Positions 49,379 through 61,509 of a DNA stretch of 61,509 nucleotides are shown piece by piece. Position numbers and translations under genes: made by a program. This DNA comes from Chloroflexota bacterium (lineage in GTDB: Bacteria > Chloroflexota > Dehalococcoidia > Tepidiformales > Tepidiformaceae). Each line of letters begins with the position of its first letter. Within the stretch, counting starts at the first letter, position 1. The DNA lies in NCBI GenBank assembly GCA_026702615.1, contig JAPPBY010000027.1, positions 1 to 61,509 on the forward strand, read 5' to 3'. The notes under the pieces were generated by a model. That model ran no database searches, had not been told where the DNA came from, and was given only the letters and a program-made list of their open reading frames with translations.

Positions 49379-50137
49379 CTACTCCAGTTCAACGTCCACT
49401 GGAATCAGGTCGTCACTCCGCTCAAAGCGGCCGCTGCCGAAGACAGACATGCTGAGTGGACCGTCGTCGTCATGCGTCGTCCAGGTTCCACCCTCGGGCC
49501 GCGTGCTGAGGTAGAGGTTGTCGGGGTTGCTGGTGCTCCGCCACACGGCCACGTGGACGGTCGCGGTGGATCCATTCCCTAGGTCGACGTCAACCGGAAT
49601 CAGGTCGTCACTCCGCTCAAAGCGGCCACTGCCGAAGACGGACATGCTAAGGGGACCGTCGTCGTCATGCGTCGTCCAGGACCCACCCTCGGGCCGGGTG
49701 CTGAGGTAGAGGTTGTCGGGGTTGCTGGTGCTCCGCCAAACGGCCACATGCACGGTCGCGACACGTGCCGCCTGCGCCAGTGTCAGGTTCAGCGTCACGG
49801 GACCGCTTCCGCCGTGCTGTGCGGTCTGCGCGGCGGCCTGGCCCCCGATCTCAAAGCGAATGTCGCCGTCGCAGCCGTCTCGCGTACTGGCGTTGTGAAC
49901 GGTCACGAAGTACGACGTGACCCCCGACCTGGAGAAGGTCGTCGCAGGGCTGTTGTTGCACAGCGTGTCGCCAACGAAGGCCTCCACGCTTAGCCCGGTC
50001 GCCACATCTCCGTCGGCTCCGGTTACGGTTCCCGTAAACGCCGAGGGGGGGCTGGGCTGCGCCAGTGCAACCGTCACGAAGGAAAGCGCGAGCGCCGCAA
50101 CTGCGGCAGTCAGAATCCAGGGCTTCATTCTTTTCAT
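49379..50137 (-). CDS. Exported protein with 65-residue tandem repeat
   Basis: A 252-residue secreted protein of unknown function. N-terminal signal peptide (cleavage expected near VALAQPS), a domain with two Cys (about 60 and 90) resembling an Ig-like or cell-surface module, then two tandem copies of a beta-rich unit (VHVAVWRSTSNPDNLYLS... ending DDLIPVDV). ATG 50137 follows CAGGAGTCG; ATG 50128 is an alternative. It is monocistronic, with a terminator behind it. Confidence 0.75.
   Translation of the reverse strand: MKRMKPWILTAAVAALALSFVTVALAQPSPPSAFTGTVTGADGDVATGLSVEAFVGDTLCNNSPATTFSRSGVTSYFVTVHNASTRDGCDGDIRFEIGGQAAAQTAQHGGSGPVTLNLTLAQAARVATVHVAVWRSTSNPDNLYLSTRPEGGSWTTHDDDGPLSMSVFGSGRFERSDDLIPVDVDLGNGSTATVHVAVWRSTSNPDNLYLSTRPEGGTWTTHDDDGPLSMSVFGSGRFERSDDLIPVDVELE
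49391..49760 (-). repeat. 195-bp direct tandem repeat inside the exported protein gene
   Basis: Two near-identical copies, 49391-49565 and 49586-49760, exactly 195 bp apart and in frame (65 codons). Only a few substitutions separate them (for example CCACTG/CAACCG near the start), so the duplication looks recent or maintained by recombination. Confidence 0.9.
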
Positions 50138-50184
50138 GGGGGTGGTCGACTCCTGCGTGAGTTTTGCCGCCGGTTTGCCTAAGG

Positions 50185-51090
50185 TTACCCGAGGATAGCC
50201 ACGTCAATGGCCATAACGATGAAGATCGCCGCAAGATATGCCAGAGAAAACGTGTAGAGCCGGATTGACGGCACCCGATCCGGCCACTTCCAGAGCCCGA
50301 ACGCGATCGCGACGAACCCCAGACCGGCTGCTCCCGCCACCGCGCCGTACAGCCAGCCGACCTCGCCGGTCAGCAGGAGCGAGAGCGTGAGCGGCAGGAG
50401 CACGATCGAGTAGGCGAGGATCTGCCGACGGGTCGCGACCTCGCCGGCCTGCACCGGCAGCATCGGCACGCTCGCCTCGCGGTAGTCGGGGGCGATGCGC
50501 AGAGCCAGGGCCCAGAAGTGCGGCGGCGTCCAGAAGAAGATGATGGCGAACATGATCACGGGCGCCCAGGCCAGCTCCCCGGTGACCGCCGCCCAGCCCA
50601 CCATTGGCGGAAAGGCCCCCGCCGCGCCCCCGATAACGATGTTCTGCGAGGAGCGCCGCTTCAGCCACACCGTGTAGATGAACACGTAGAAGAGGAATGC
50701 CGCCCACGCCAGCACGGCCGCCAACAGGTTGGTTGTCGCCCAGAGGAACGCGAATGCGCCCACGGCCAGCGCGAGCCCGAAGAGGAATGCGTTGAGCGGA
50801 GGAATCTCCCCGCGCACCAGCGGCCTGGACTGCGTCCGGCTCATGAGTGCATCGATGTCGCGGTCGTACCAGCAGTTGACCGCGTTCGCCCCCGCGGCCG
50901 AGGCCGCGCCGCCGACGAGCGTCGCGATCACGAGCGCCGTCGAGGGCCAGCCGCCTTCTGCCACCACCATCGCGGGGACTGTCGTCGCCAGGAGCAGCAG
51001 GATGATGCGCGGCTTGGTGATGGCGACGTAGCTGCGAATAGTCGCCGACGCCCGGCTCGACTCCCGCAGGGCCAGTCCCAGTGCCGTCAT
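50185..51090 (-). CDS. ctaB: Protoheme IX farnesyltransferase
   Basis: A 301-residue UbiA-family integral membrane enzyme that farnesylates heme B to heme O. The prenyl-diphosphate motifs are NAVNCWYDRDIDALMSRTQ and, further on, YREASVPML with YTVWLKRRS between them; about nine membrane segments. ATG 51090 overlaps the ctaA stop (ATGA), so the two are co-translated. The longer upstream frame is inside ctaA. Confidence 0.95.
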   Translation of the reverse strand: MTALGLALRESSRASATIRSYVAITKPRIILLLLATTVPAMVVAEGGWPSTALVIATLVGGAASAAGANAVNCWYDRDIDALMSRTQSRPLVRGEIPPLNAFLFGLALAVGAFAFLWATTNLLAAVLAWAAFLFYVFIYTVWLKRRSSQNIVIGGAAGAFPPMVGWAAVTGELAWAPVIMFAIIFFWTPPHFWALALRIAPDYREASVPMLPVQAGEVATRRQILAYSIVLLPLTLSLLLTGEVGWLYGAVAGAAGLGFVAIAFGLWKWPDRVPSIRLYTFSLAYLAAIFIVMAIDVAILG

Positions 51091-52022
51091 GCGGGCGCCT
51101 CCGCCGGGGCCGCCGGGACGCGGTTGGGCGACACCGCTTGCGCGGAGTACCCGAGGAGCGCGGCTGCCGACAGGGTGAGCCACAGCAGGGAGGCTAGCAC
51201 GGTATGCGTTACGGTGAGCGCGTCGGGGAATGTGTACAGCACGTTGAGCGCCCCGATCGCCACCTGAGCCGCGTAGATCACTGCCGTCGTTCGCGCCACG
51301 TGCATCCCCCACCGCAGCGTCCCGCGCTCCCGCCAGGCGACGACCACGAGCCAGGCCAGTGGTACGAGCAGCAATGCCGCCAGGTAGCGATGCACCATGT
51401 GCGTGATCTGCTGGTCGTCGGCGCCGGGGAACACGCCGCCGCTACAGAGCGGCCAGCCCTCGCAGGCGGTCGAGCCCCCGCTTTCACCGAGATAGCCACC
51501 CATCCACACCACTGCCGCGAACAGCACCAGGGCGACGATCGCCCGCTGGCCCACACGCCAGGCCGCGGCGCGCTGTTCGGGTGGGATTCCGCCTCGGACC
51601 TCGTTGAACATCGCGAGCGCGGTCGCGGCCATCACCGTCAGGATCGCCATCGCCAGCAGCAGGTGGGTCGCGACGATCTCGGCGGGCAATTCCTCCCAGA
51701 CCGTGATCGCCCCGATCACGCCCTGGATGCCCACCAGGGGCACGGCCGCGATTGCCGGCCAGAGCACCGCCGGCGTTCCCCGGTAGTGCCGCCAGGCGAA
51801 GACCGCGGTCGCGATCACGAGGATCCCGACGAAGGCCGCAACGAAACGGTGGGTCGACTCGATCACCGCTTCCTGCTCGTGCGGCGGCACGATGCCGCCG
51901 TGACAGGTCGGCCAGTCGGGGCAGCCCAGCCCCGACCCCGTTGCGCGCACGTACACCCCGACCCCAATCAGGATCAGCGTGGCGGCGCAGGTGATGAAGG
52001 CGAGGTTGCGGGTGGCTCTCAT
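51087..52022 (-). CDS. ctaA: Heme A synthase
   Basis: A 311-residue CtaA/COX15 enzyme oxidising heme O to heme A. It has eight membrane segments, paired His ligands (THRFVAAFVG, MVHRYLAAL, ATHLLLA, VTHTVLA) and Cys pairs in LGCPDWPTCHGG and CEGWPLCSGG. Its presence implies an aa3-type terminal oxidase elsewhere. A TACGCT hexamer sits about 35 bases before ATG 52022, divergent from the sirtuin promoter. Confidence 0.96.
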   Translation of the reverse strand: MRATRNLAFITCAATLILIGVGVYVRATGSGLGCPDWPTCHGGIVPPHEQEAVIESTHRFVAAFVGILVIATAVFAWRHYRGTPAVLWPAIAAVPLVGIQGVIGAITVWEELPAEIVATHLLLAMAILTVMAATALAMFNEVRGGIPPEQRAAAWRVGQRAIVALVLFAAVVWMGGYLGESGGSTACEGWPLCSGGVFPGADDQQITHMVHRYLAALLLVPLAWLVVVAWRERGTLRWGMHVARTTAVIYAAQVAIGALNVLYTFPDALTVTHTVLASLLWLTLSAAALLGYSAQAVSPNRVPAAPAEAPA

Positions 52023-52093
52023 CGACTCGGAGGCGCCCCTGCAGACGCCGGTTCTCAGCGTACGGTGCGATGCCCGGAGGCGCCAGATTCCGG

Positions 52094-52099
52094 TAGGCT
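52094..52099 (+). promoter_or_regulatory. -10 box TAGGCT, leaderless start of sirtuin gene
   Basis: TAGGCT, six bases, then ATG 52106; identical in box and spacing to the genes at 21794 and 56550. Confidence 0.55.
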
Positions 52100-52105
52100 C
52101 GCGCC

Positions 52106-52864
52106 ATGAGCGAGACCGACATTGATGCCGTCGCCTCGTGGCTGCGGGAGGCCCGGTCGGTCGCCATCCTCACCGGCGCCGGCATCTCGACCGAGTCCGG
52201 GATCCCCGATTTCCGCGGACCCGACGGCGTCTGGACCAAGAACCCCGCCGCCGAGCGCACTGCCACCATCCAGCACTACGTCGCCGACCGCGACCACCGG
52301 GTCCGTTCCTGGGCCAATCGCGCCGACAGCCCCATGCACAACGCCGAGCCGAACGCCGGCCACTACGCCCTCACCGCCCTGGAGGGGAAGGGGAAGCTCG
52401 ACACGCTCGTCACGCAGAACATCGACGGACTCCACCATGCTGCCGGCACCTCGCCAGAACGAATCGTCGAGATCCACGGGACCGTGCGCGACTACGCCTG
52501 CCTCGGCTGCGCCGAGCGTGGCCCCATCGAAGTCGTGCTGGAACGCGTGCGGAACGGCGATGAGGACCCGCACTGCGACCAGTGCGGCGGCCTCCTCAAG
52601 TCGGCCACGATCTCCTTTGGCCAGGCGCTCATCGCCGAGGATCTCGAGCGGTCCCAGCTCGCTGCCGCCAACTGCGATCTCTTTCTCGCGATCGGCACCT
52701 CGCTCACGGTTTACCCCGTGGCCGCACTCCCCGAGATCGCGCTCCAGTGCGGGGCGCGCCTCGTCATCCTCAACGCGCAGGAGACCCCCTACGACCCGGC
52801 CGCGGCCACCATCCTGCGGGACGGCATCGGCACCGTGCTCCCCGATATCGTCGAGCGCGTCTAG
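52106..52864 (+). CDS. Sir2-family NAD-dependent protein deacylase
   Basis: A 252-residue sirtuin that removes acyl groups from lysines using NAD. GAGISTESGIPDFRGPDG (24-41) binds NAD, TQNIDGLH (103-110) is the core, catalytic His124 is in EIHG, and the zinc Cys are 132, 135, 157 and 160. No second N-terminal extension is present, as in class U or III bacterial sirtuins. Tail-to-tail overlap of four bases with the nitroreductase gene. Confidence 0.95.
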   Translation: MSETDIDAVASWLREARSVAILTGAGISTESGIPDFRGPDGVWTKNPAAERTATIQHYVADRDHRVRSWANRADSPMHNAEPNAGHYALTALEGKGKLDTLVTQNIDGLHHAAGTSPERIVEIHGTVRDYACLGCAERGPIEVVLERVRNGDEDPHCDQCGGLLKSATISFGQALIAEDLERSQLAAANCDLFLAIGTSLTVYPVAALPEIALQCGARLVILNAQETPYDPAAATILRDGIGTVLPDIVERV

Positions 52865-53568
52865 CGGCCTGACTCCGGAGCGTCTTGCTGCTCGCCCCAG
52901 CGGTCCCAGTGCACCACCTCGCCCAGCGGCCTGCGTCGCGCCTGCGAGAATCGTCCCTTCTCCAGGTAGCCCAGCGGGATGAGGGCCATGACGAACGCGT
53001 TCTCGGGTAGCCCAAGCAACTCGTTGACCCCCGAGTCTTCGTCCAGCGTCCAGGTCATCACGGTTCCGATGTCGAACGCCCGCGCTGCCAGCATCAGGTT
53101 CTGCACGGCGCCGTAGATCGAACCCCCGAGGCCTGCCCCCGAGCGCCGCGTGTTGTCCGACATGCGGGCAGCGGTCTGCATGACCGGCGCCACGATCACA
53201 GGCACCTCCGCGAAGTGCTCCGCCAGGTGGACCACGCCCCGGCGGTTGCGCGCGTCGATTCCGATTTCCCCCTCGGCGATCCCTCCGCGCGTGATGCGCG
53301 CCGCTCCGAGCTCCTCGTCGCTCACCCGCTCGTAACCGTAGGAGGACAGGAGTCGCTCCGAGTAGACCTTCGCGATCGCGTCCTTCGTCTCCTGGTCGCG
53401 GATTACGACCCAGCCCCAGCCCTGCTGGTTGCCGCCCGTCGGACCGCGGACGGCCGCATCGAGGATCTCCCAGATCACATCCTCCGGGATCGGGTCCGGC
53501 TTCAGGAATCGCTGCGCGCGTGTCGTATGGATCGCGTCGAGGACATCAAGGGGTTCACGGTCCGGCAT
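52861..53568 (-). CDS. Nitroreductase-family flavoprotein
   Basis: A 235-residue FMN-dependent nitroreductase-fold protein: TTRAQRFLKPDPIPEDV at the start, AAVRGPTGGNQQGW as FMN contact, and a C-terminal VMALIPLGYLEKG segment. It may act on nitro compounds, quinones or a F420-like or cobalamin-ligand substrate. ATG 53568 follows AGGAGG. TAGACT lies about 32 bases upstream, divergent from the LLM gene. Confidence 0.9.
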   Translation of the reverse strand: MPDREPLDVLDAIHTTRAQRFLKPDPIPEDVIWEILDAAVRGPTGGNQQGWGWVVIRDQETKDAIAKVYSERLLSSYGYERVSDEELGAARITRGGIAEGEIGIDARNRRGVVHLAEHFAEVPVIVAPVMQTAARMSDNTRRSGAGLGGSIYGAVQNLMLAARAFDIGTVMTWTLDEDSGVNELLGLPENAFVMALIPLGYLEKGRFSQARRRPLGEVVHWDRWGEQQDAPESGR

Positions 53569-53600
53569 AGGGCCTCCTGGTATGGCTGTTCGCCGTCGCG

Positions 53601-53635
53601 AGTCTACCTGTCCGCGAGTGTCAGACGCGTATCAT
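53601..53635. promoter_or_regulatory. Divergent -10 pair between nitroreductase and LLM genes
   Basis: TAGACT (53601-53606, minus) and TATCAT (53630-53635, plus) lie in the 98-base gap between the two starts. Both leaders have AGGAGG sites. Confidence 0.45.
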
Positions 53636-53666
53636 CCGCGCGACGCGCACCCATAGGAGGCTGGCG

Positions 53667-54536
53667 ATGAAGATTGGGCTCTACGGCATCAACCTGGGCG
53701 TCCTCGCCGACCGTGAAGCCATGCTCCGCGTCGCCCGCGCGGCCGAAGCCGCCAACTTCGAGTCGCTCTGGACCGGCGAGCACGTCGTGTTCGTCGACCC
53801 CCAGCAACCGCCCTCCCCCCTCGTTCCCGACACCCCTCTCGCCGACACCGTCGCGACCCTCGCCTTCCTCGCCGGCGCAACCGAGCGCGTGCGCCTTGCC
53901 AGCGGCATCCTCCTCCTCCCCCAGCGCAACCCCGTCGTGCTCGCCAAGGAGCTCGCCGGCATCGACGTGCTTTCGGGCGGACGCCTCATCCTTGGGGTGG
54001 GTGTCGGTTCGGTCGAAGGCGAGTTCGACGCCATCGGCGTCCCCTTCCGCGAGCGCGGCGCCCGCACGTCTGAGCACATCGAGGTCCTGCGTACGCTCTG
54101 GACGCAGGAGAAGCCGGTTTTCGAAGGCCGCTTCACCTCGTTCTCCGGCATCCAGTCCCGTCCCCTTCCCGTCCAGCAGCCCCATCCCCCCATCGTGATC
54201 GGCGGCTACTCCGACGCCGCCCACCGGCGCACCATCACCCAGGGCGACGGCTGGTACGGCTTCATGATGGATGTTGAGGGCGCCGCCGCCGCCATCCAGG
54301 CACTCGGTGAGGCCGCCGAGAAGGTCGAGCGCCCCGACTACCTGGGACCCCTCGAGATCACGATCACGCCGCGTGGCCGCCTCGACCGCGAGGCCGTCGA
54401 GCGCTTCGCCGAGGTCGGCGTCCACCGCCTCGCCCCCATGCCCCGCCACCTCATGCTCCCCACCGACGATCCCGACCCCATCCGCGACGACGTCGTTGCC
54501 TTCGTCGAAGCCACGGCGGAGTCTCTGGAGCTGTAG
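53667..54536 (+). CDS. LLM class flavin/F420-dependent oxidoreductase
   Basis: A 289-residue luciferase-like TIM-barrel protein. The opening KIGLYGINLG, RVARAAEAANFESLWTGEH, RVRLASGILLLPQRNP and GRLILGVGVGS are family hallmarks, and the loop after TFEGRFTSF-type segment is preserved. F420 or FMN could be the cofactor; the protein does not settle which. ATG 53667 follows TAGGAGGCTGGCG. Divergent from the nitroreductase gene. Confidence 0.9.
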   Translation: MKIGLYGINLGVLADREAMLRVARAAEAANFESLWTGEHVVFVDPQQPPSPLVPDTPLADTVATLAFLAGATERVRLASGILLLPQRNPVVLAKELAGIDVLSGGRLILGVGVGSVEGEFDAIGVPFRERGARTSEHIEVLRTLWTQEKPVFEGRFTSFSGIQSRPLPVQQPHPPIVIGGYSDAAHRRTITQGDGWYGFMMDVEGAAAAIQALGEAAEKVERPDYLGPLEITITPRGRLDREAVERFAEVGVHRLAPMPRHLMLPTDDPDPIRDDVVAFVEATAESLEL

Positions 54537-54542
54537 GGTTGG

Positions 54543-54571
54543 TTGCTATCTGTACCGGTACACAGTACAGT
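54543..54571 (+). promoter_or_regulatory. higBA promoter
   Basis: TTGCTA (54543-54548) and TACAGT (54566-54571) are 17 bases apart; the operator lies in the spacer. TACAGT ends five bases before the higB GTG. Confidence 0.55.
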
Positions 54572-54576
54572 ACCTT
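54551..54576. promoter_or_regulatory. Palindromic operator of higBA
   Basis: TGTACCGGTACA (54551-54562) is a perfect 12-base palindrome, overlapping a second dyad in which GGTAC pairs with GTACC around ACAGTACA. Both sit between the -35 and the start codon, the usual place for HigA autorepression. Confidence 0.65.
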
Positions 54577-54855
54577 GTGATTCGCTCGTTTCGCCACCGT
54601 GGGCTTCGGCGGCTGCACGAGCGCGGTGATTCCAGCCGAGTGAGAGCTGATCAGGTGGAGCGCATCCGAGTCGCCCTGTCGCACCTTGACTCAGCCGGGG
54701 TGCCCTCCGACCTCGCTCTTCCCGGCTACAGACTTCATCCACTGAGGGGCGACTTGAGGCACTTCTGGAGCATTTCGATCTCCGGCAACTGGCGAATCAT
54801 CTTTCGGCTCGAAGACGGCGACGTGTACGACATCGACTTGGTCGACTATCACTAG
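54577..54855 (+). CDS. higB: HigB-family toxin
   Basis: A 92-residue RelE/HigB-fold toxin, an mRNA interferase acting at the ribosome. The opening MIRSFRHRGLRRLHERGDSS, PLRGDLRHFWSISISGNWRIIF and DIDLVDYH match the HigB family closely. Start GTG 54577 (read as Met) fits that opening; the frame is open further upstream through the LLM gene. It precedes the antitoxin, the order typical of higBA. Base composition is lower in GC than neighbours. Confidence 0.9.
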   Translation: MIRSFRHRGLRRLHERGDSSRVRADQVERIRVALSHLDSAGVPSDLALPGYRLHPLRGDLRHFWSISISGNWRIIFRLEDGDVYDIDLVDYH

Positions 54856-54869
54856 ACAAGGAGTGACCT

Positions 54870-55169
54870 ATGCCCATGAAAGACCCACCCCACCCCGGCC
54901 TTGGTATCAAGCTGAACTGCCTGGAGCCGCTTGGCCTGAGCGTGACGGAGGCCGCAGAGGTGCTGGGCGTCGCGCGACATACCCTCTCGCGGGTCCTGAA
55001 CGGGCACGCCGCTATCTCCCCGGACATGGCGATCCGTTTGGAGAAGGCCGGCTGGTCAAACGCCGAGTTCTGGCTCCGCCTTCAGACCGCCTACGATCTG
55101 GCACAGGCCCGGAAGCACGAGGACGCCATCAAGGTCGAGCGGTATGAGCCGCTCACGCCTGTCGGCTAG
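54870..55169 (+). CDS. higA: HigA-family antitoxin (XRE HTH)
   Basis: A 99-residue HigA antitoxin with an XRE helix-turn-helix at about residues 23-60 ([22 protein letters not shown]) and the C-terminal extension that contacts HigB. It neutralises the toxin and represses the operon. ATG 54870 follows AAGGAGTGACCT, 15 bases after higB. Confidence 0.93.
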
Positions 55170-55178
55170 GGTCCAGCC

Positions 55179-56261
55179 TCACTCCTCGCAGACCACCCCG
55201 TCGCCGTCCCCGTCTCGAGCGGCTGGCACCATCTCCGCCGGGAAACCCCTGCCCCCGTCAGGGCAACGCCCCCGACTGCAGCCCTGCTGCCTGCGCTCAC
55301 CCGCCGCTTCCGCCGCCGCACACGATGCGTAGGTCCGCTGCGATTGCGTGCTGGAAACCTCCGTGGGCGTGGAGTCGGTAGTCGAGCCCGCTGTGCCCGT
55401 CGAGGAGCAGGCGCTTGTGAGCGCGCTTGTCTCCGACGGACCCAGGACGTGGCCGTAGCGGCTGGCCGTGTCCCAGTAACGGGTCGCGTACGCGCAGGCG
55501 TTGGCGTTGTAGCCCTCCGCGTCGAGCGATCGCCAGCGCGGGAGCCACTCGTTCGCGAGGTCGTCCGACTTCGAGAGGTTGAACCTGGCGACCGTGGGCA
55601 CGAGGTTCCCGAGGTCGCTGTAGGCGGCGCGAGCCTCGGACTCGCTATCCACCAGTTCACAGAGCACGGACCAGGGGAGCACGTGGTCCCGGTGCCCGTC
55701 GCCGTTCAGAGAATCGAGGCTGTAGAACCCCCTCGCCCCGTCGAGCAGGTCGCGCGCCTCGCCCGACCACGAGGGCCGGTCGTCGCACCACTCCGGCTCC
55801 TCCGAGGAACCCTGCCCCGTCTCCGTCGTCGCCGCGCGTGGCGTCGCCGTAGCGGCCGCGGCCGTTCCCTCCGACCGAGAGACGGCAGCCCCGCTGCCGG
55901 GGATGACCAGCTCCCAACCCACCCTGAGATTGCTGCAGTTCGCGTCGATCCTGGGGTTCGCTTCGAGCAGCCGCGACGTCGAGATGCCGAATTCCTGCGC
56001 GATGCGCCAGCACACGTCCCCCGCCTGCACGACGTAGGTCGTCGTCACCTCGGCGGCTGGGGTTGGCGTCGGGGACGGGGTCGAGACGGGCGTGCGTTCC
56101 GGCGACGAGGTGGAGGTTGCCGGGGCCTCGGTCGCTGTCTCGGGAGATGCGGTTGCAGTTGAGGCCGTTGGCGCCGTACCGGGCCCTTCCTCCGGCTCAC
56201 ACGCCACGGCGCCGCCCAGGACCAGCACGGCGAACAACACAACGAATACGCTGTATTTCAC
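55179..56261 (-). CDS. Lipoprotein: LysM, HNH-type nuclease (DUF1524-like), excalibur
   Basis: A 360-residue lipoprotein. Signal peptide with Cys21 (GAVAC), Pro/Thr-rich linker to about 72, LysM peptidoglycan-binding domain 76-120 ([19 protein letters not shown]), linker, a DUF1524/GmrSD-C-like HNH domain at about 165-290 ([16 protein letters not shown] with N228/K231, [16 protein letters not shown]), then a C-terminal excalibur calcium-binding segment (310-360, ending [11 protein letters not shown]). A cell-wall-attached nuclease is the best reading. GTG 56261. It lies divergent from nothing; higBA converges on it. Confidence 0.8.
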
Positions 56262-56409: not shown

Positions 56410-56486
56410 TGGTCGGGGCGACCGGATTTGAACCGATGACCTCTTGACCCCCAGTCAAGTGCGCTACCAGGCTGCGCCACGCCCCG
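56410..56486 (-). tRNA. tRNA-Pro (anticodon GGG)
   Basis: A 77-nt tRNA including an encoded CCA (56410-56412). Acceptor stem CGGGGCG pairs with CGCCCCG, anticodon stem CTTGA/TCAAG flanks loop CTGGGGG with anticodon GGG, and the T-arm has GGTTCAAATCC. It starts with C as prolyl tRNAs in bacteria do. Confidence 0.95.
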
Positions 56487-56549: not shown

Positions 56550-57779
56550 ATGCGCGTCATCCCCGGTCAGGCGCAGTCGTTCGACCTGCGTTCGCTGATC
56601 GGCGGCATCTATCTGCCCGCCCTCTTCTTCGGCATCGGCCAGTGGATGATCATCCCCGCCATCCCCCAGTTTGCCGACGAACTCGGGGCGAGCGTCTTCC
56701 TCAGCGGCATCATCTTCGCCGCCCGCGGCGCCGGCTCGATGATCGGGGATGTTCCCTCCGGCCTCCTCATGAGCCGCCTCGGCGGGCGCGTCACCATGAC
56801 ATCCGGCGTGGTGCTGACCGCCGTTACGGCGGCGGCGATGGGGTTCAGCAGCGGTCCCGCCACCCTCGGCCTCTTCACGCTGTTGAACGGCGTCGCCTTC
56901 GCCCTCTGGCACGTCTCGCGCCTCGCCTACATGACCGAGACCGTGCCCGTCGAGTACCGCGGACGCGCCCTCTCGCTCGTCGGCGGCGTGACGCGCGTCG
57001 GCTTCTTCGCCGGGCCCATCGTCGGAGGCGCGATCGCCCAGTTTGGCGGGCTGGAAACCGTGTTCTTCGCCCAGGCCGTGGTTGTCGGCGTGGCCGCCCT
57101 GCTCGTCGCGACCCGCCTTCCCGAGCCTCGCGGGGGCGATGCCGGCACCCCGGAGCGTCCCCATGTGAGTCTCCGCAGCGTGGCCCTCGCCGAACGCCGC
57201 AGCCTCATCGTTGCGGGGTCGGTCGCCATCACCCTCGTGCTCATCCGCCACGGACGTCAGTTCCTGATTCCCGTCTGGGGCAGGGAAGCCCTCGACCTCG
57301 ATCCCTTCGAGATCGGCCTCGTATTCGGGCTCGCCTCCGCCATCGACATGGTCATGTTCTATCCCGTCGGCGTGGTCATGGACCGCTGGGGACGGAAGTG
57401 GGTCATCGTGCCGAGCCTGCTGGTGCTCTCCGCTAGCCTGCTCCTCATGCCGCTCACGGCCGGCTTCATGTCGTTCCTGCTGGTGGGACTGCTCTCCGGC
57501 TTCGGCAACGGGCTGGGAAGCGGCGCCGTCATGACCCTCGGCGCCGACCTTGCCCCACCCGATGCCGCGGGCGAGTTCCTCGGGCTCTGGCGCTTAGTCG
57601 GGGACGTAGGCGCGGTCGCCGCGCCGCCCGCGATCGGCGGGCTCGAAGACCTGTTCACGCTTGATGCCGCGGCTGCGGTTACCGGGATCATCGGGCTCGC
57701 CGGCGGAGTCATCATGCTCCTGCTCGTGCGTGAGACCCTGACGCGGTCTCGTGAGCCCGCCCGCGCGTCCCCCCGCTAG
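56550..57779 (+). CDS. MFS transporter
   Basis: A 409-residue major facilitator protein with about twelve membrane segments; the A-motif appears as GLLMSRLGGRVTM and as GVVMDRWGRKWVI in the second half. Resembles drug/metabolite efflux MFS members (subfamily not clear). Divergent from tRNA-Pro; its 3' end overlaps the exonuclease III gene tail-to-tail by four bases. Confidence 0.88.
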   Translation: MRVIPGQAQSFDLRSLIGGIYLPALFFGIGQWMIIPAIPQFADELGASVFLSGIIFAARGAGSMIGDVPSGLLMSRLGGRVTMTSGVVLTAVTAAAMGFSSGPATLGLFTLLNGVAFALWHVSRLAYMTETVPVEYRGRALSLVGGVTRVGFFAGPIVGGAIAQFGGLETVFFAQAVVVGVAALLVATRLPEPRGGDAGTPERPHVSLRSVALAERRSLIVAGSVAITLVLIRHGRQFLIPVWGREALDLDPFEIGLVFGLASAIDMVMFYPVGVVMDRWGRKWVIVPSLLVLSASLLLMPLTAGFMSFLLVGLLSGFGNGLGSGAVMTLGADLAPPDAAGEFLGLWRLVGDVGAVAAPPAIGGLEDLFTLDAAAAVTGIIGLAGGVIMLLLVRETLTRSREPARASPR

Positions 57780-58549
57780 AGGTCGAGCTCGATGCCGACC
57801 GGGCAGTGGTCCGAACCCAGTTGCTCGTGCTCGATGAACGCGCTCCGCACCAACGGCAGCAGGTCCTCGCTGACGAACACATAGTCGATGCGCCAGCCGA
57901 TGTTCCGCTTGCGGCGCTCCCGCCAGGGGTCCCAGTAGCTGTACGCGTCCACCTGCTCCGGGTGTAGCGCCCGGAAGGTGTCGACGAAACCGCTCTCGAT
58001 CACGCGGTCGACCCACGCGCGCTCGACGGGCAGGAAGCCCGTCTCCTTCTCGTTGGGGCGGGCCACGTCGATCTCGCCGTGGGCCACGTTCAGGTCCCCC
58101 ATGAACACGACGCTCCGGCCCTCGTCCCGCAGCGCCACGATGCGCTCCAGGAAGGCTTCGTAGTACGCGAGCTTGAAGTCGAGCCGCGCGAGCTTCCGGC
58201 CGGCGTTGGGGAAGTACGAGGTCAGCAGCACGAAGTCCCCGAAGTCCGCCTCGATGACGCGTCCCTCGCGCTCGAACTCGGGCGTCTCCAGCCCGAGGCG
58301 CAGGTCAACGGGAGTTTGCTTCGTCAAGAGGATGGCGCCGCTGTACCCCGGTTCCTCGGCCGGGTGCCAGGTGGCCTCGTACCCGGCCTCGAGCCAGGGC
58401 TGCTCCTCGACCTGTTCGGGACGCGCCTTCACCTCCTGCAGCCCGGCGATGTCGGGCGCCGTCTCCTCGAGCCATGCCGGGAAGTTCCCCGAGCGCAGCC
58501 CCGCGCGGAGGCCGTTCACGTTCCAGGAGCAGATGCGCAGCGTCGCCAC
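57776..58549 (-). CDS. xth: Exodeoxyribonuclease III (AP endonuclease)
   Basis: A 257-residue exonuclease III/ExoA-type AP endonuclease of base-excision repair. The metal-binding LQEVKA (Glu), GDLNVAH (Asp/Asn) and GSDHCP (Asp-His) are all present, and NVNGLRAGLRSGNF opens the fold. GTG 58549 lies three bases after the stop of the membrane-protein gene, so the two are co-transcribed. Confidence 0.96.
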   Translation of the reverse strand: MATLRICSWNVNGLRAGLRSGNFPAWLEETAPDIAGLQEVKARPEQVEEQPWLEAGYEATWHPAEEPGYSGAILLTKQTPVDLRLGLETPEFEREGRVIEADFGDFVLLTSYFPNAGRKLARLDFKLAYYEAFLERIVALRDEGRSVVFMGDLNVAHGEIDVARPNEKETGFLPVERAWVDRVIESGFVDTFRALHPEQVDAYSYWDPWRERRKRNIGWRIDYVFVSEDLLPLVRSAFIEHEQLGSDHCPVGIELDL

Positions 58550-58552
58550 CGC

Positions 58553-59287
58553 TTACAGGTACTGCCGTGCGATCACGACGACTGCGGTGCTCACCCCGGC
58601 CACGACGAGGTATTCGGCGATGGTCGAGGGCTTCAGGTCGTCGTCGAGCAGGTGGTGGACCAGCCCGGTCGCGACGTAGAACCCGATGATCATGAGCGCG
58701 CCCGTCAGCAGGTCGTCGAGCGGGAAGTAGTAGAGCGCGATGCGCAGCTCGGCCAGTGAGATGCCGATCGCCAGCGCGGCCAGCAGGGATGATGCGCCCC
58801 GCCCCCGGCTCTCGCGCAGCAGGTCGAGCGCCAGCGCGAAACTCAGCGCCCCGACGGCCGCTGCCGATGCGGGCAGGTTCAGGTCGTGCGTGAAGAACAC
58901 CGTGAAGAGCGCCAGTGCGACCAGGTACGTGACCACCGCCAGCACGAGCCGCATCGGCCCGAAAAGCGGCCGGCTCGGCGAGACCGCGTGGTACTCCGCG
59001 TACAGCATCAGGCCGGTCGCGGCGCCCGCCGCCAGCCCCGCCGCCAGCCTTGCGTACCCGCTGACCGCCTCGTCGATGAAGAGCCCCGCGCCGAGCACCC
59101 CCAGCAGGGGCAGCAGCGCGTAGCTCAGGGAGCCGAAGGGGCTTCCGCGCCAGTCGGGGTGGGAGCGCACGGCGCTCTCGACGCCCGCGGCCGCGATGAG
59201 CGCCGTAAGGGCCAGGATCCAGTGCTGCTCAGGCCGGAAGTTGAGGTAGGCGGCGAGGCCCGCCATCGCGAGTCCACCGAGCACCAC
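58553..59287 (-). CDS. Multi-span membrane protein, unknown
   Basis: A 244-residue membrane protein with about seven hydrophobic segments (LDLLRESRGRG lies in a loop). No family I can name. GTG 59287 is proposed, but the frame is open upstream with a plausible CTG. It is followed within three bases by xth, and preceded by the amidohydrolase gene, 63 bases away. No function can be assigned. Confidence 0.65.
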   Translation of the reverse strand: MVLGGLAMAGLAAYLNFRPEQHWILALTALIAAAGVESAVRSHPDWRGSPFGSLSYALLPLLGVLGAGLFIDEAVSGYARLAAGLAAGAATGLMLYAEYHAVSPSRPLFGPMRLVLAVVTYLVALALFTVFFTHDLNLPASAAAVGALSFALALDLLRESRGRGASSLLAALAIGISLAELRIALYYFPLDDLLTGALMIIGFYVATGLVHHLLDDDLKPSTIAEYLVVAGVSTAVVVIARQYL

Positions 59288-59350
59288 GGCGCGGCCCGTC
59301 GCGGTCAGGCTGGGGATTGGTGGCTCGGCCCGGGCTTCCGCTTCCAGCGC

Positions 59351-60232
59351 CTACTCCTCCGCGAGCGTGGGCTCCTCGAACCCGTAAATCTCCGCCGCGT
59401 TTCGCCACCACAGGCGCTCGCGGTCCGACTCCGACAGCTCTAGCTGGTCGTAGATCGCCTCGAAGCGGTCGATGTGCTCGCGGATGTCGTCCATGCCGCA
59501 GTCCGAGCCGAACACCAGCTTCTCGATGCCGATCTCGCCCCCGATTAGTCCGAGCTCGACCGCGTGCCGCTCGATCGTCTCGCCGCCGCTCATGTCGAGG
59601 GAGACGTTCGGCCGCCAGCGCGCGATGGAAGTCGCGTACTCGTAGTTGCCCTGGTTTCCGAGGTGCGCGCCGATGATGCGCAGGTCGGGGAAGCGCTGCG
59701 CGATCGTGTCCAGGTGGACCGGCGACATGCGCTCCGCGGAGACATCGCGCATCGGCCAGCGGCCGCGCATCTCCTGCATGCGGCGGAAGGTCGCGGCCGC
59801 CGCCGGGTCCCTCCGCGGATGCGTGACCGAATAGTCGATGCCCCCGCCGATGACGCCCAGGTGGAACAGGACCGGCATCCCCAGCCGGTCGGCTGCCGCG
59901 TAGGTGGGCAGGTAGTCCGGCTCGTCGTAGCGGCGCGCCACGCCGATCAGCTTCAGCCCTCGGTACCCCATCGCGTGGAGCTCCCCGACCTCATCCCGGC
60001 CGATCACCTCCGGGTCGATCATCGCCACCGGCACGAACAGGTCCGGGTACTCCTGCAGGATCTCGATGCCGCGCTCGTAGGTCGGCCCGAAGCGCCCGCC
60101 CGTCAGGACGCAGGCCTTCGTGATCCCGGCAGCCGTCGCCACTTCGGCGAGGCGCTCGATAATCGGCGCCGGGTCGGCGTCGGGCTTCTCCCAGTCGCGC
60201 GGGAAGTGGATGTGAACGTCGAAGATCTTCAT
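59351..60232 (-). CDS. Amidohydrolase 2 family protein
   Basis: A 293-residue amidohydrolase-2 (ACMSD-like) metal enzyme. HIH near the start (DVHIHF), a central GMPVLFHLGV His, IIGAHLG and the FGSDCGMD Asp are the typical metal-site set. Members hydrolyse or decarboxylate cyclic or aromatic acids. ATG 60232; TACACT lies about 28 bases upstream. Confidence 0.9.
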   Translation of the reverse strand: MKIFDVHIHFPRDWEKPDADPAPIIERLAEVATAAGITKACVLTGGRFGPTYERGIEILQEYPDLFVPVAMIDPEVIGRDEVGELHAMGYRGLKLIGVARRYDEPDYLPTYAAADRLGMPVLFHLGVIGGGIDYSVTHPRRDPAAAATFRRMQEMRGRWPMRDVSAERMSPVHLDTIAQRFPDLRIIGAHLGNQGNYEYATSIARWRPNVSLDMSGGETIERHAVELGLIGGEIGIEKLVFGSDCGMDDIREHIDRFEAIYDQLELSESDRERLWWRNAAEIYGFEEPTLAEE

Positions 60233-60260
60233 CTTGGGGCCGCAGGATCGCGCTTGCCAG

Positions 60261-60266
60261 AGTGTA
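60261..60266 (-). promoter_or_regulatory. Candidate -10 (TACACT) for amidohydrolase gene
   Basis: TACACT on the minus strand, 28 bases before ATG 60232, in the 67-base gap after the LLM gene. No -35 seen. Confidence 0.35.
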
Positions 60267-60299
60267 GCACGAGGGCGGTTTCGCCCCTGCTCGCCGTGC

Positions 60300-61142
60300 C
60301 TACAGCAAGCGCTCGGCGAACGCTTCGAGCGCGGGGATGGCGTCCCGGGACGACCGCCACAGCGTCACGACGATGCGGTTCACCCCCGCCTCCACCAGCG
60401 CCTCGACCTCGTCCCGCGTGATCGAAGGCGAGCCGTTCACGGTCACGTCGAACGGCTCACCGGCGCGGCCGTACTGCTCCCGCAGTTCCGTCAGCTTCGC
60501 GACGTGCTCGCGGGCGCTTTCGGGCGTGTGCCGGAGCGCGTACCACCCGTCGCCCAGACGCGCGGCGCGGCGCAGGGCTGCGGGCGTCTCGCCCCCCACG
60601 AGGATGGGCGGGTGCGGCTTCTGGAAGGGCTTCGGCTCGAACGCTGCTGGGCCGAGGTCGTAGTGCTTGCCGTGGAACTCGGGCTCCGGTTCCGTCCAGA
60701 GCGCCCGCAGCACGGCGATGCACTCGTCCATGCGCGCCCCTCGCGTGTGGAAGTCGAGCCCGACCATTTCGAACTCCTCCTCCAGCCAGCCCGCGCCCAC
60801 GCCGAAGATGACGCGCCCCCGCGTCAGGTAGTCGAGGTCGGCCACCGTCTTCGCGGTCGACACGGGGTCGCGCAGGGGCAGGATGAAGACGGCGGTCCCG
60901 AACCGGATCGTCGTCGTGTGCGAGGCGATGTAGGTGAATACCGTGAGCCCGTCCATGAAGGGCCAGCGCGGTTCGAGCGGCGCCTGCCCGTCCTCCGCGT
61001 AGGGGTAGGTCGAGGGCATCTCGGTCGGAAAGATGAGGTGGTCCGGGCGCCAGAGGGACTCGAAGCCCAGCTCCTCCGCCTTCTGCGCCGCCGCGATCAG
61101 CGCCTCGCCCCGGATGCCGTGAATGACCGTGCCGAATTTCAT
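60300..61142 (-). CDS. LLM class F420-dependent-type oxidoreductase
   Basis: A 280-residue luciferase-like barrel protein: KFGTVIHGIRG, EELGFESLWRPDHL, IRFGTAVFILPLRDP, GRVIFGVGAGWLEEEF and GARMDECIAVLRALWT are hallmarks of TIGR03619-like F420-dependent LLM proteins. ATG 61142 overlaps the stop of the upstream thiolase-like gene (ATGA). Substrate unknown, though the neighbours suggest acyl-CoA or ketone oxidation. Confidence 0.9.
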   Translation of the reverse strand: MKFGTVIHGIRGEALIAAAQKAEELGFESLWRPDHLIFPTEMPSTYPYAEDGQAPLEPRWPFMDGLTVFTYIASHTTTIRFGTAVFILPLRDPVSTAKTVADLDYLTRGRVIFGVGAGWLEEEFEMVGLDFHTRGARMDECIAVLRALWTEPEPEFHGKHYDLGPAAFEPKPFQKPHPPILVGGETPAALRRAARLGDGWYALRHTPESAREHVAKLTELREQYGRAGEPFDVTVNGSPSITRDEVEALVEAGVNRIVVTLWRSSRDAIPALEAFAERLL

Positions 61143-61509
61143 GCCCGCGCCTCCCTGCTGAAGATGAGCCCGCCGCTGGCGAGCGTCCCCGCCCCCACTG
61201 TCGCGACGGTGTGAGCCGCGCCCTCAATCTGGCGCGCTTCCGCCCGCCCGGTCACCTGCAACACTGCTTCGCTGATCTGGGCCATCCCGTGCAGGCGCCC
61301 CTCGCCCAGCGAGCAGCCCGACGTGTTCACCGGCAGCTCGCCATCGAGCGCCGTCGCCCCGGAGGCGATGTAGCTCGCGGCCTCTCCCCGCCCCACGAAC
61401 CCCAGCGCCTCCAGCCACACGTAGAGGAAGATGCTGAACCCGTCGTACAGCATGGCCACGTCGATGTCGGCCGGCCCGAGGCCCGCCGACTCCCACAGCT
61501 TCTCCCCCA
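61139..61509 (-). CDS. Thiolase-like protein, C-terminal part (runs off window)
   Basis: About 120 C-terminal residues of a thiolase-superfamily protein; the 5' end lies beyond 61509. Landmarks DVAMLYDGFSIFLYVWLEALG, GELPVNTSGCSLGEGRLHG and AAHTVATVGAG match the CoA-thiolase-like C-terminal domain. The NTSG Cys loop differs from the GNGG of the first thiolase-like gene. It is coupled to the LLM gene. Confidence 0.85.
   Translation of the reverse strand, partial: GEKLWESAGLGPADIDVAMLYDGFSIFLYVWLEALGFVGRGEAASYIASGATALDGELPVNTSGCSLGEGRLHGMAQISEAVLQVTGRAEARQIEGAAHTVATVGAGTLASGGLIFSREARA

Follow-up and report, generated by a model that had tools for sequence, protein, structure and literature searches.

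Which activity, and in which place, should be expected of a bacterial lipoprotein that carries a LysM domain, an HNH-like core and an Excalibur domain in one chain? One gene of a 61,509-nucleotide stretch of Chloroflexota DNA, here called the window, raises this question. We approached it through the layout of the protein, the homology of its core, the conservation and neighbourhood of the gene, and the distribution of its parts among related genomes.

Protein layout and the envelope of the genus

Domain, motif and profile searches confirmed that LysM, HNH-like and Excalibur parts are joined in that order in one predicted lipoprotein, as a first-pass annotation of the DNA had read them (Table 1), and the orthologues in five relatives were 360-364 AA long. 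Of the three spacers, one is Thr/Pro/Ser-rich and follows C21 (residues ~22-72), the second leads from LysM to the core, and the third from the core to Excalibur. In the Pfam search of the window protein, the LysM domain passed its cut-off of 20.9 bits with a score of 47.1 (PF01476, E 2.3e-12). The Excalibur domain stayed below its cut-off of 22 bits (PF05901) both in the protein search (14.3 bits) and in the six-frame scan (19.1 bits); three of the six LysM-form orthologues reached that cut-off, neighbouring stretches being counted. The Excalibur domain is defined, in the available text of PMC5137146, by a DxDxDGxxCE motif and two conserved cysteines, and in all six LysM-form proteins the motif was intact, the two cysteines corresponding to C314 and C358. 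After C21 each of these six proteins contained ten cysteines: LysM has two, and the core and Excalibur have four each. An even number in each domain would fit disulfides formed outside the cell.

Table 1. Coordinates of the lipoprotein gene and its parts in the window.
Feature	Position	Strand	Basis or remark
Whole gene	55179..56261	(-)	GTG start, 360 AA; exact ORF ends confirmed
Lipoprotein signal peptide, residues 1-20, and C21 (predicted lipidated)	56199..56261	(-)	Lipobox pattern
LysM domain, residues 76-121, cysteine pair C84/C109	55899..56036	(-)	PF01476 match; cysteines in 6/6 LysM-form proteins
HNH-like (GmrSD_C/DUF1524-related) predicted nuclease domain, residues ~157-285	55407..55793	(-)	Profile comparisons with controls
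D192-H193, predicted metal ligand and general base	55683..55688	(-)	Residue conservation
N228-x-x-K231, second half of predicted active site	55569..55580	(-)	Residue conservation
Excalibur domain, residues 311-359	55185..55331	(-)	Below Pfam cut-off in window protein
DxDxDGxxCE motif, residues 350-359 (D350-E359), within Excalibur	55185-55214	(-)	Motif conservation

The lipobox was scored with a PROSITE-type pattern, which placed a cysteine at residue 21 in all six LysM-form proteins; a lipobox cysteine together with a signal peptidase II in the genome is the combination expected of a bacterial lipoprotein. Signal peptidase II, MraY and penicillin-binding transpeptidases were each present in all nine genomes of the genus, so that lipid anchoring is possible and so is peptidoglycan as the target of LysM. 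Some Dehalococcoidia have no cell wall, and the idea that peptidoglycan is missing here and LysM binds something else was dropped in view of these MraY and transpeptidase genes.

The genome (G000) encodes two other LysM proteins, at L072:2279-2689 (+) and L073:1570-2295 (+), in which LysM also carries a cysteine pair. The first of them resembles the initial 123 residues of the window protein at 59% identity and has no nuclease part.

Homology of the core

The first-pass label of DUF1524/HNH proved right in kind by profile comparison, but it missed the Pfam cut-off. No Pfam family was reached above cut-off by the core, which gave weak matches only, to Endonuclease_1, GmrSD_C and HNH_4; for GmrSD_C (PF07510) the core reached 12.0 bits at best, against a gathering score of 23, and because it falls below that score the core is treated here as a distant relative and is not filed as a PF07510 member. 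An alignment of nine related cores from eight genomes (A2) was compared by hhalign with one of twelve secreted HNH proteins (A3), drawn from genomes of Chloroflexota and from plasmids of actinobacteria. The two joined over core residues 40-135 at 97.1% probability, with a score of 67.6; the highest of 200 column shuffles scored 23.4 and the reversed alignment 20.9. The comparison is partly biased, since four of the twelve A3 rows had entered it by way of a weak match to the query. With the other eight rows alone the probability was 68.0% and the score 35.0, where 100 shuffles reached no more than 24.7; an HMM built from them put the window gene second of the 558 window ORFs, but not significantly (E 1.5). 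Run over the whole genome of origin, the A3 HMM had the window gene as its sole match at E <= 0.001 (E 7.6e-5), a value to which the same row bias applies.

Viral homologues provided a fairer test, since they were fetched with A3 by the motif PLA[ENV]A[HW]xSG[AG], which is absent from the window core. From 80 viral loci, 37 were hand-picked to thin out near-copies and three with stops were dropped, and the resulting 34 rows matched the close family at 95.8% probability with a score of 55.7, the maximum of 200 shuffles being 20.4. The HMM of these rows placed the window gene first of the 558 window ORFs (E 0.0025). These profile comparisons make it very likely that the core is homologous to the secreted HNH endonuclease family of the GmrSD_C/DUF1524 type.

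Matches in the phage database (two records from one phage, E 0.8) and in the plasmid database (five records, best E 0.3) were not significant alone, and they fell on genes annotated as HNH in two of two and four of five cases, respectively. A weak endonuclease VII match to the core was found in PHROGs (E 0.017). The close family, searched against viral_contigs, gave 99 candidate stretches with no relatives among them, and solved structures and NCBIfam returned, by our reading, LysM-type or low-complexity matches only, none of them over an NCBIfam cut-off. Two AlphaFold2 models were poor (mean pLDDT 52.6 and 65.4), with the stretch leading into and holding D192/H193 below 50 in both, and contained no recognisable HNH fold; used on such low-pLDDT models, Foldseek yielded 34 PDB and 47 viral-model matches, none at E <= 0.001, and the best VIA-align hit (Z 4.2) was a designed helical repeat.

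The core contains the active-site signature of DHxxP with N-x-x-K downstream. D192, H193, P196, N228, K231, C159, C256, Y258 and C285 were invariant in all nine close relatives and in all 38 distinct rows of a wider alignment (A5); among the A3 counterparts, the aspartate, histidine and asparagine were each kept in 12 of 12 proteins and the lysine in 11 of 12. N219, although invariant in the close family, was asparagine in just five of the 38 A5 rows. The D192/H193 region, N228 and K231 had been singled out beforehand as the HNH residues, and their conservation in the close family, A5 and A3 bears out that choice. Their roles, with D192 and H193 as metal ligand and general base and N228 and K231 completing the active site, are presumably those of HNH nucleases in general. 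It has also to be asked whether the HNH fold may be kept in an inactive or binding-only form, the protein being an adhesin for extracellular DNA. A core divergent enough for Pfam to miss would suit such a role, but the four predicted catalytic residues do not vary among the nine relatives and the dN/dS of the core is 0.12-0.21, and we consider an adhesin unlikely.

Neighbourhood, distribution and proposed module exchange

The nuclease gene lies in a conserved chromosomal stretch, not in an island. The genes at 56550-61459 stand in the same order beside it in all five relatives, and those at 49379-54536 lie on its other side in the three of five loci that reach that far, the other two ending inside the first of them; the names given to neighbouring genes are our reading of the ORFs, with no search behind them. 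A tRNA-Pro gene (GGG anticodon) is located just upstream of the nuclease gene at 56410-56486 (-). Pairwise NG86 dN/dS against the five orthologues was 0.04-0.22 for LysM, 0.12-0.21 for the core and 0.07-0.13 for Excalibur, and 0.15-1.08 for the three linkers, values that are rough because several dS exceed 1.

Between the nuclease gene and a luciferase-like gene lies a pair at 54271-55169 (+) that we take to be a HigBA-like toxin-antitoxin system. The window, L008 and L009 have it, whereas L006, L007 and L010 show no such pair next to the gene; because the latter three of the five relatives keep the nuclease, the pair was rejected as a functional partner. The same observation weighs against the proposal that the protein protects the surface against foreign DNA, whether phage genomes or the DNA of neighbours. 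A predicted surface nuclease adjoined by such a pair, in the window and two of the five relatives, might invite this explanation, but the pair is dispensed with in the remaining relatives, the gene is not in an island, and injected phage DNA is normally not exposed at the wall; on balance defence seems improbable. Less probable still is an antibacterial toxin displayed on the surface. HNH domains are common as toxin warheads and surface lipoprotein toxins exist, but no small immunity-like gene follows the nuclease gene in all relatives, the next gene in three of five being directly the conserved luciferase-like one, and the core sequence is conserved and not polymorphic.

Among the nine genomes of the genus, the core was found in seven and, by ORF reading, the LysM form in six, and since two genomes are without it the core is dispensable. 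No match to the core occurred in the 29 other genomes of the family. The class sample gave matches in 7 of 294 genomes, namely six of the genus (G031 lies outside this draw) and G170, which belongs to another family, and the phylum sample in 2 of 400, one of them the weak partial match of G485 (E 8.7e-4 over 59 of 134 profile positions). The genome_contigs scan, which finds close relatives only, gave 58 candidate stretches. Six of them proved to be relatives: five matched over nearly the full length, the best segment showing 66-89% identity, and the sixth shared Excalibur only.

The HMM of the HNH family fetched 30 loci, 25 of which had an ORF passing the filter, these being the best-scoring part of 41 matching genomes; seven of the 25 ORFs were already in A3, and Excalibur and LysM were scored by sequence pattern. 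The Excalibur motif was present in 16 of these 25 best-scoring ORFs and the LysM motif in none, from which HNH-Excalibur appears as the common stock and LysM as the addition. The order of domains in the window protein, unfamiliar to the first-pass annotation, is indeed unusual; HNH-Excalibur without LysM is common in the same class. The wall-binding LysM addition appears, as judged from these sequences, to be known so far from one genus of uncultured bacteria, and our search of the open PMC literature found no paper on a LysM-HNH-Excalibur architecture.

In L018 (G034), L019 (G032) and L024 (G170), the same core was joined to another N-terminal half, in which inspection by eye showed no lipobox; this half matched a 252-AA window protein encoded at 49379-50137 (tblastn E 1e-10 to 1e-13). 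L024 is without Excalibur, and G032 carries both the LysM form and the other form. We tentatively propose, as an idea with rather less than an even chance of being right, that a nuclease-Excalibur cassette is sent to different surfaces by exchange of its N-terminal half: by lipid and LysM to the cell's own wall in six genomes, and elsewhere by a repeated 'YLSTRPEGGSWTTH' module accompanied by an ordinary secretion signal, possibly to host or matrix surfaces, with G032 having both. The core would have drifted far enough to represent an unlisted HNH subfamily.

Several further proteins share parts of these designs. The 252-AA protein, encoded on the minus strand 5 kb from the nuclease gene, contains two copies of a ~60-residue 'VxVWRSxxNPDNLYLSTRPEGGSWTTH...SGRF' module, and no Pfam model reached its cut-off on this protein. 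Matches to the module numbered 24 in the genome of origin and 3-38 per genome in the eight others of the genus; it occurred in ORFs of up to ~1300 AA and is possibly an undescribed surface module. At L074:775-3205 (-) in G033, two adjoining genes have the same N-terminal module, a common unnamed middle domain and a C-terminal Excalibur motif, that is, the same plan of address tag, middle and Excalibur with another middle domain. A secreted HNH protein at L178:568-2211 (-) in G259 continues into four Excalibur motifs in tandem.

Proposed role and nearest known systems

We hold, with a little better than even confidence, that the gene encodes a nuclease exported as a lipoprotein and tethered to the cell envelope, which breaks up extracellular DNA near the cell. 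The protein would be exported by Sec and its signal peptide cleaved at C21, whose lipidation would hold it to the membrane, and the Thr/Pro/Ser-rich spacer would let LysM bind wall glycan. The HNH domain would cut nucleic acid outside the cell, its active site containing D192/H193 and N228/K231 as homology suggests. Excalibur and up to five disulfides may restrict full folding to the exported protein, which meets Ca2+ and oxidation outside, and the extracellular DNA broken up near the cell would supply phosphate and nucleosides.

In the available text of PMC5137146, the Excalibur domain of CbpL takes on its fold when Ca2+ is present and is a random coil in its absence. The domain may consequently check that the protein is outside and not act as a switch, and by this analogy Ca2+-induced folding need not turn the nuclease on in the way that the earlier suggestion of a calcium-activated enzyme would have it; in the presumed marine habitat, moreover, Ca2+ would always be plentiful. 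The isolate of L009 bears a name (jk18x1bzbins.86) of the form used in an Ircinia sponge study, in its available text (PMC9531527), and on this ground a sponge habitat is supposed and the genus is likely to be sponge-dwelling.

Uptake, defence and nutrition, the three uses offered by the first-pass annotation, are indistinguishable by sequence, and nutrition is our first choice as a best guess. In uptake, the protein would trim double-stranded DNA on the cell surface, as EndA reportedly does in pneumococcus, so that a ComEC channel can take it in during natural transformation; this would agree with a surface position and with the ComEC-type Competence domain present in eight of the nine genomes of the genus. 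However, ComEC is also found in G035, which is without the core, many bacteria possess it but no protein of this kind, and no competence gene is linked to the nuclease core in its neighbourhood, leaving uptake quite unlikely as the main role.

If the protein is indeed an envelope nuclease that breaks up extracellular DNA, it would add an HNH example to a small set of envelope-tethered nucleases that are mostly of other folds, and would place such a nuclease in uncultured bacteria that very likely live in sponges, a habitat in which phosphate may be obtained from extracellular DNA. It would further illustrate how a nuclease core is re-addressed by a swap of N-terminal modules, with no new kind of system opened.

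Among bacterial surface nucleases, the nuclease domains of Bacillus subtilis YhcR are of a family other than HNH, and B. subtilis YokF has a Thermonuclease (SNase) fold instead of HNH and no LysM. YhcR is sortase-anchored, whereas the window protein has no LPxTG by eye and no SNase match in Pfam; for these reasons, it may work like YhcR but is not a YhcR-type member. The likeness is that of a wall-anchored nuclease acting on extracellular DNA, YhcR being described in the available part of PMC11458576 as a nuclease that is anchored to the wall, depends on Ca2+ and degrades the DNA of biofilms, and the window protein being a predicted nuclease. YokF, in the available text of PMC3929857, is a surface nuclease lipoprotein whose loss together with paralogues reduces growth on DNA, and it also carries an Excalibur domain according to the accessible portion of PMC5137146. 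By analogy, YhcR and YokF would be the closest working analogues, and the predicted fold belongs with neither of them.

By homology, the nearest system is the secreted HNH endonuclease family of Chloroflexota and Actinomycetota (GmrSD_C/PF07510-like), in which DHxxP, N-x-x-K, W-x-P, C-x-Y and a final cysteine align with the window core. These proteins are likewise secreted, and in the Chloroflexota loci L050, L065, L069 and L070 HNH is followed by Excalibur; in contrast, the window core is shorter, is without much of the family's first half and stays under the PF07510 cut-off, and the window protein has the LysM that all 25 best-scoring family ORFs lack. L064, from G035 of the same genus, passes the GmrSD_C cut-off (27.6 versus 23 bits), has an Excalibur stretch just under its own (20.5 versus 22), and gives a BLASTP E of 6e-4 with the window core in a two-sequence comparison. 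Its N-terminal half is a 'YLSTRPEGGSWTTH'-like module of the same type as in L018, L019 and L024, where the window protein has LysM. Seen beside these relatives, the window protein appears to be a known kind of secreted nuclease with an extra wall-binding tag.
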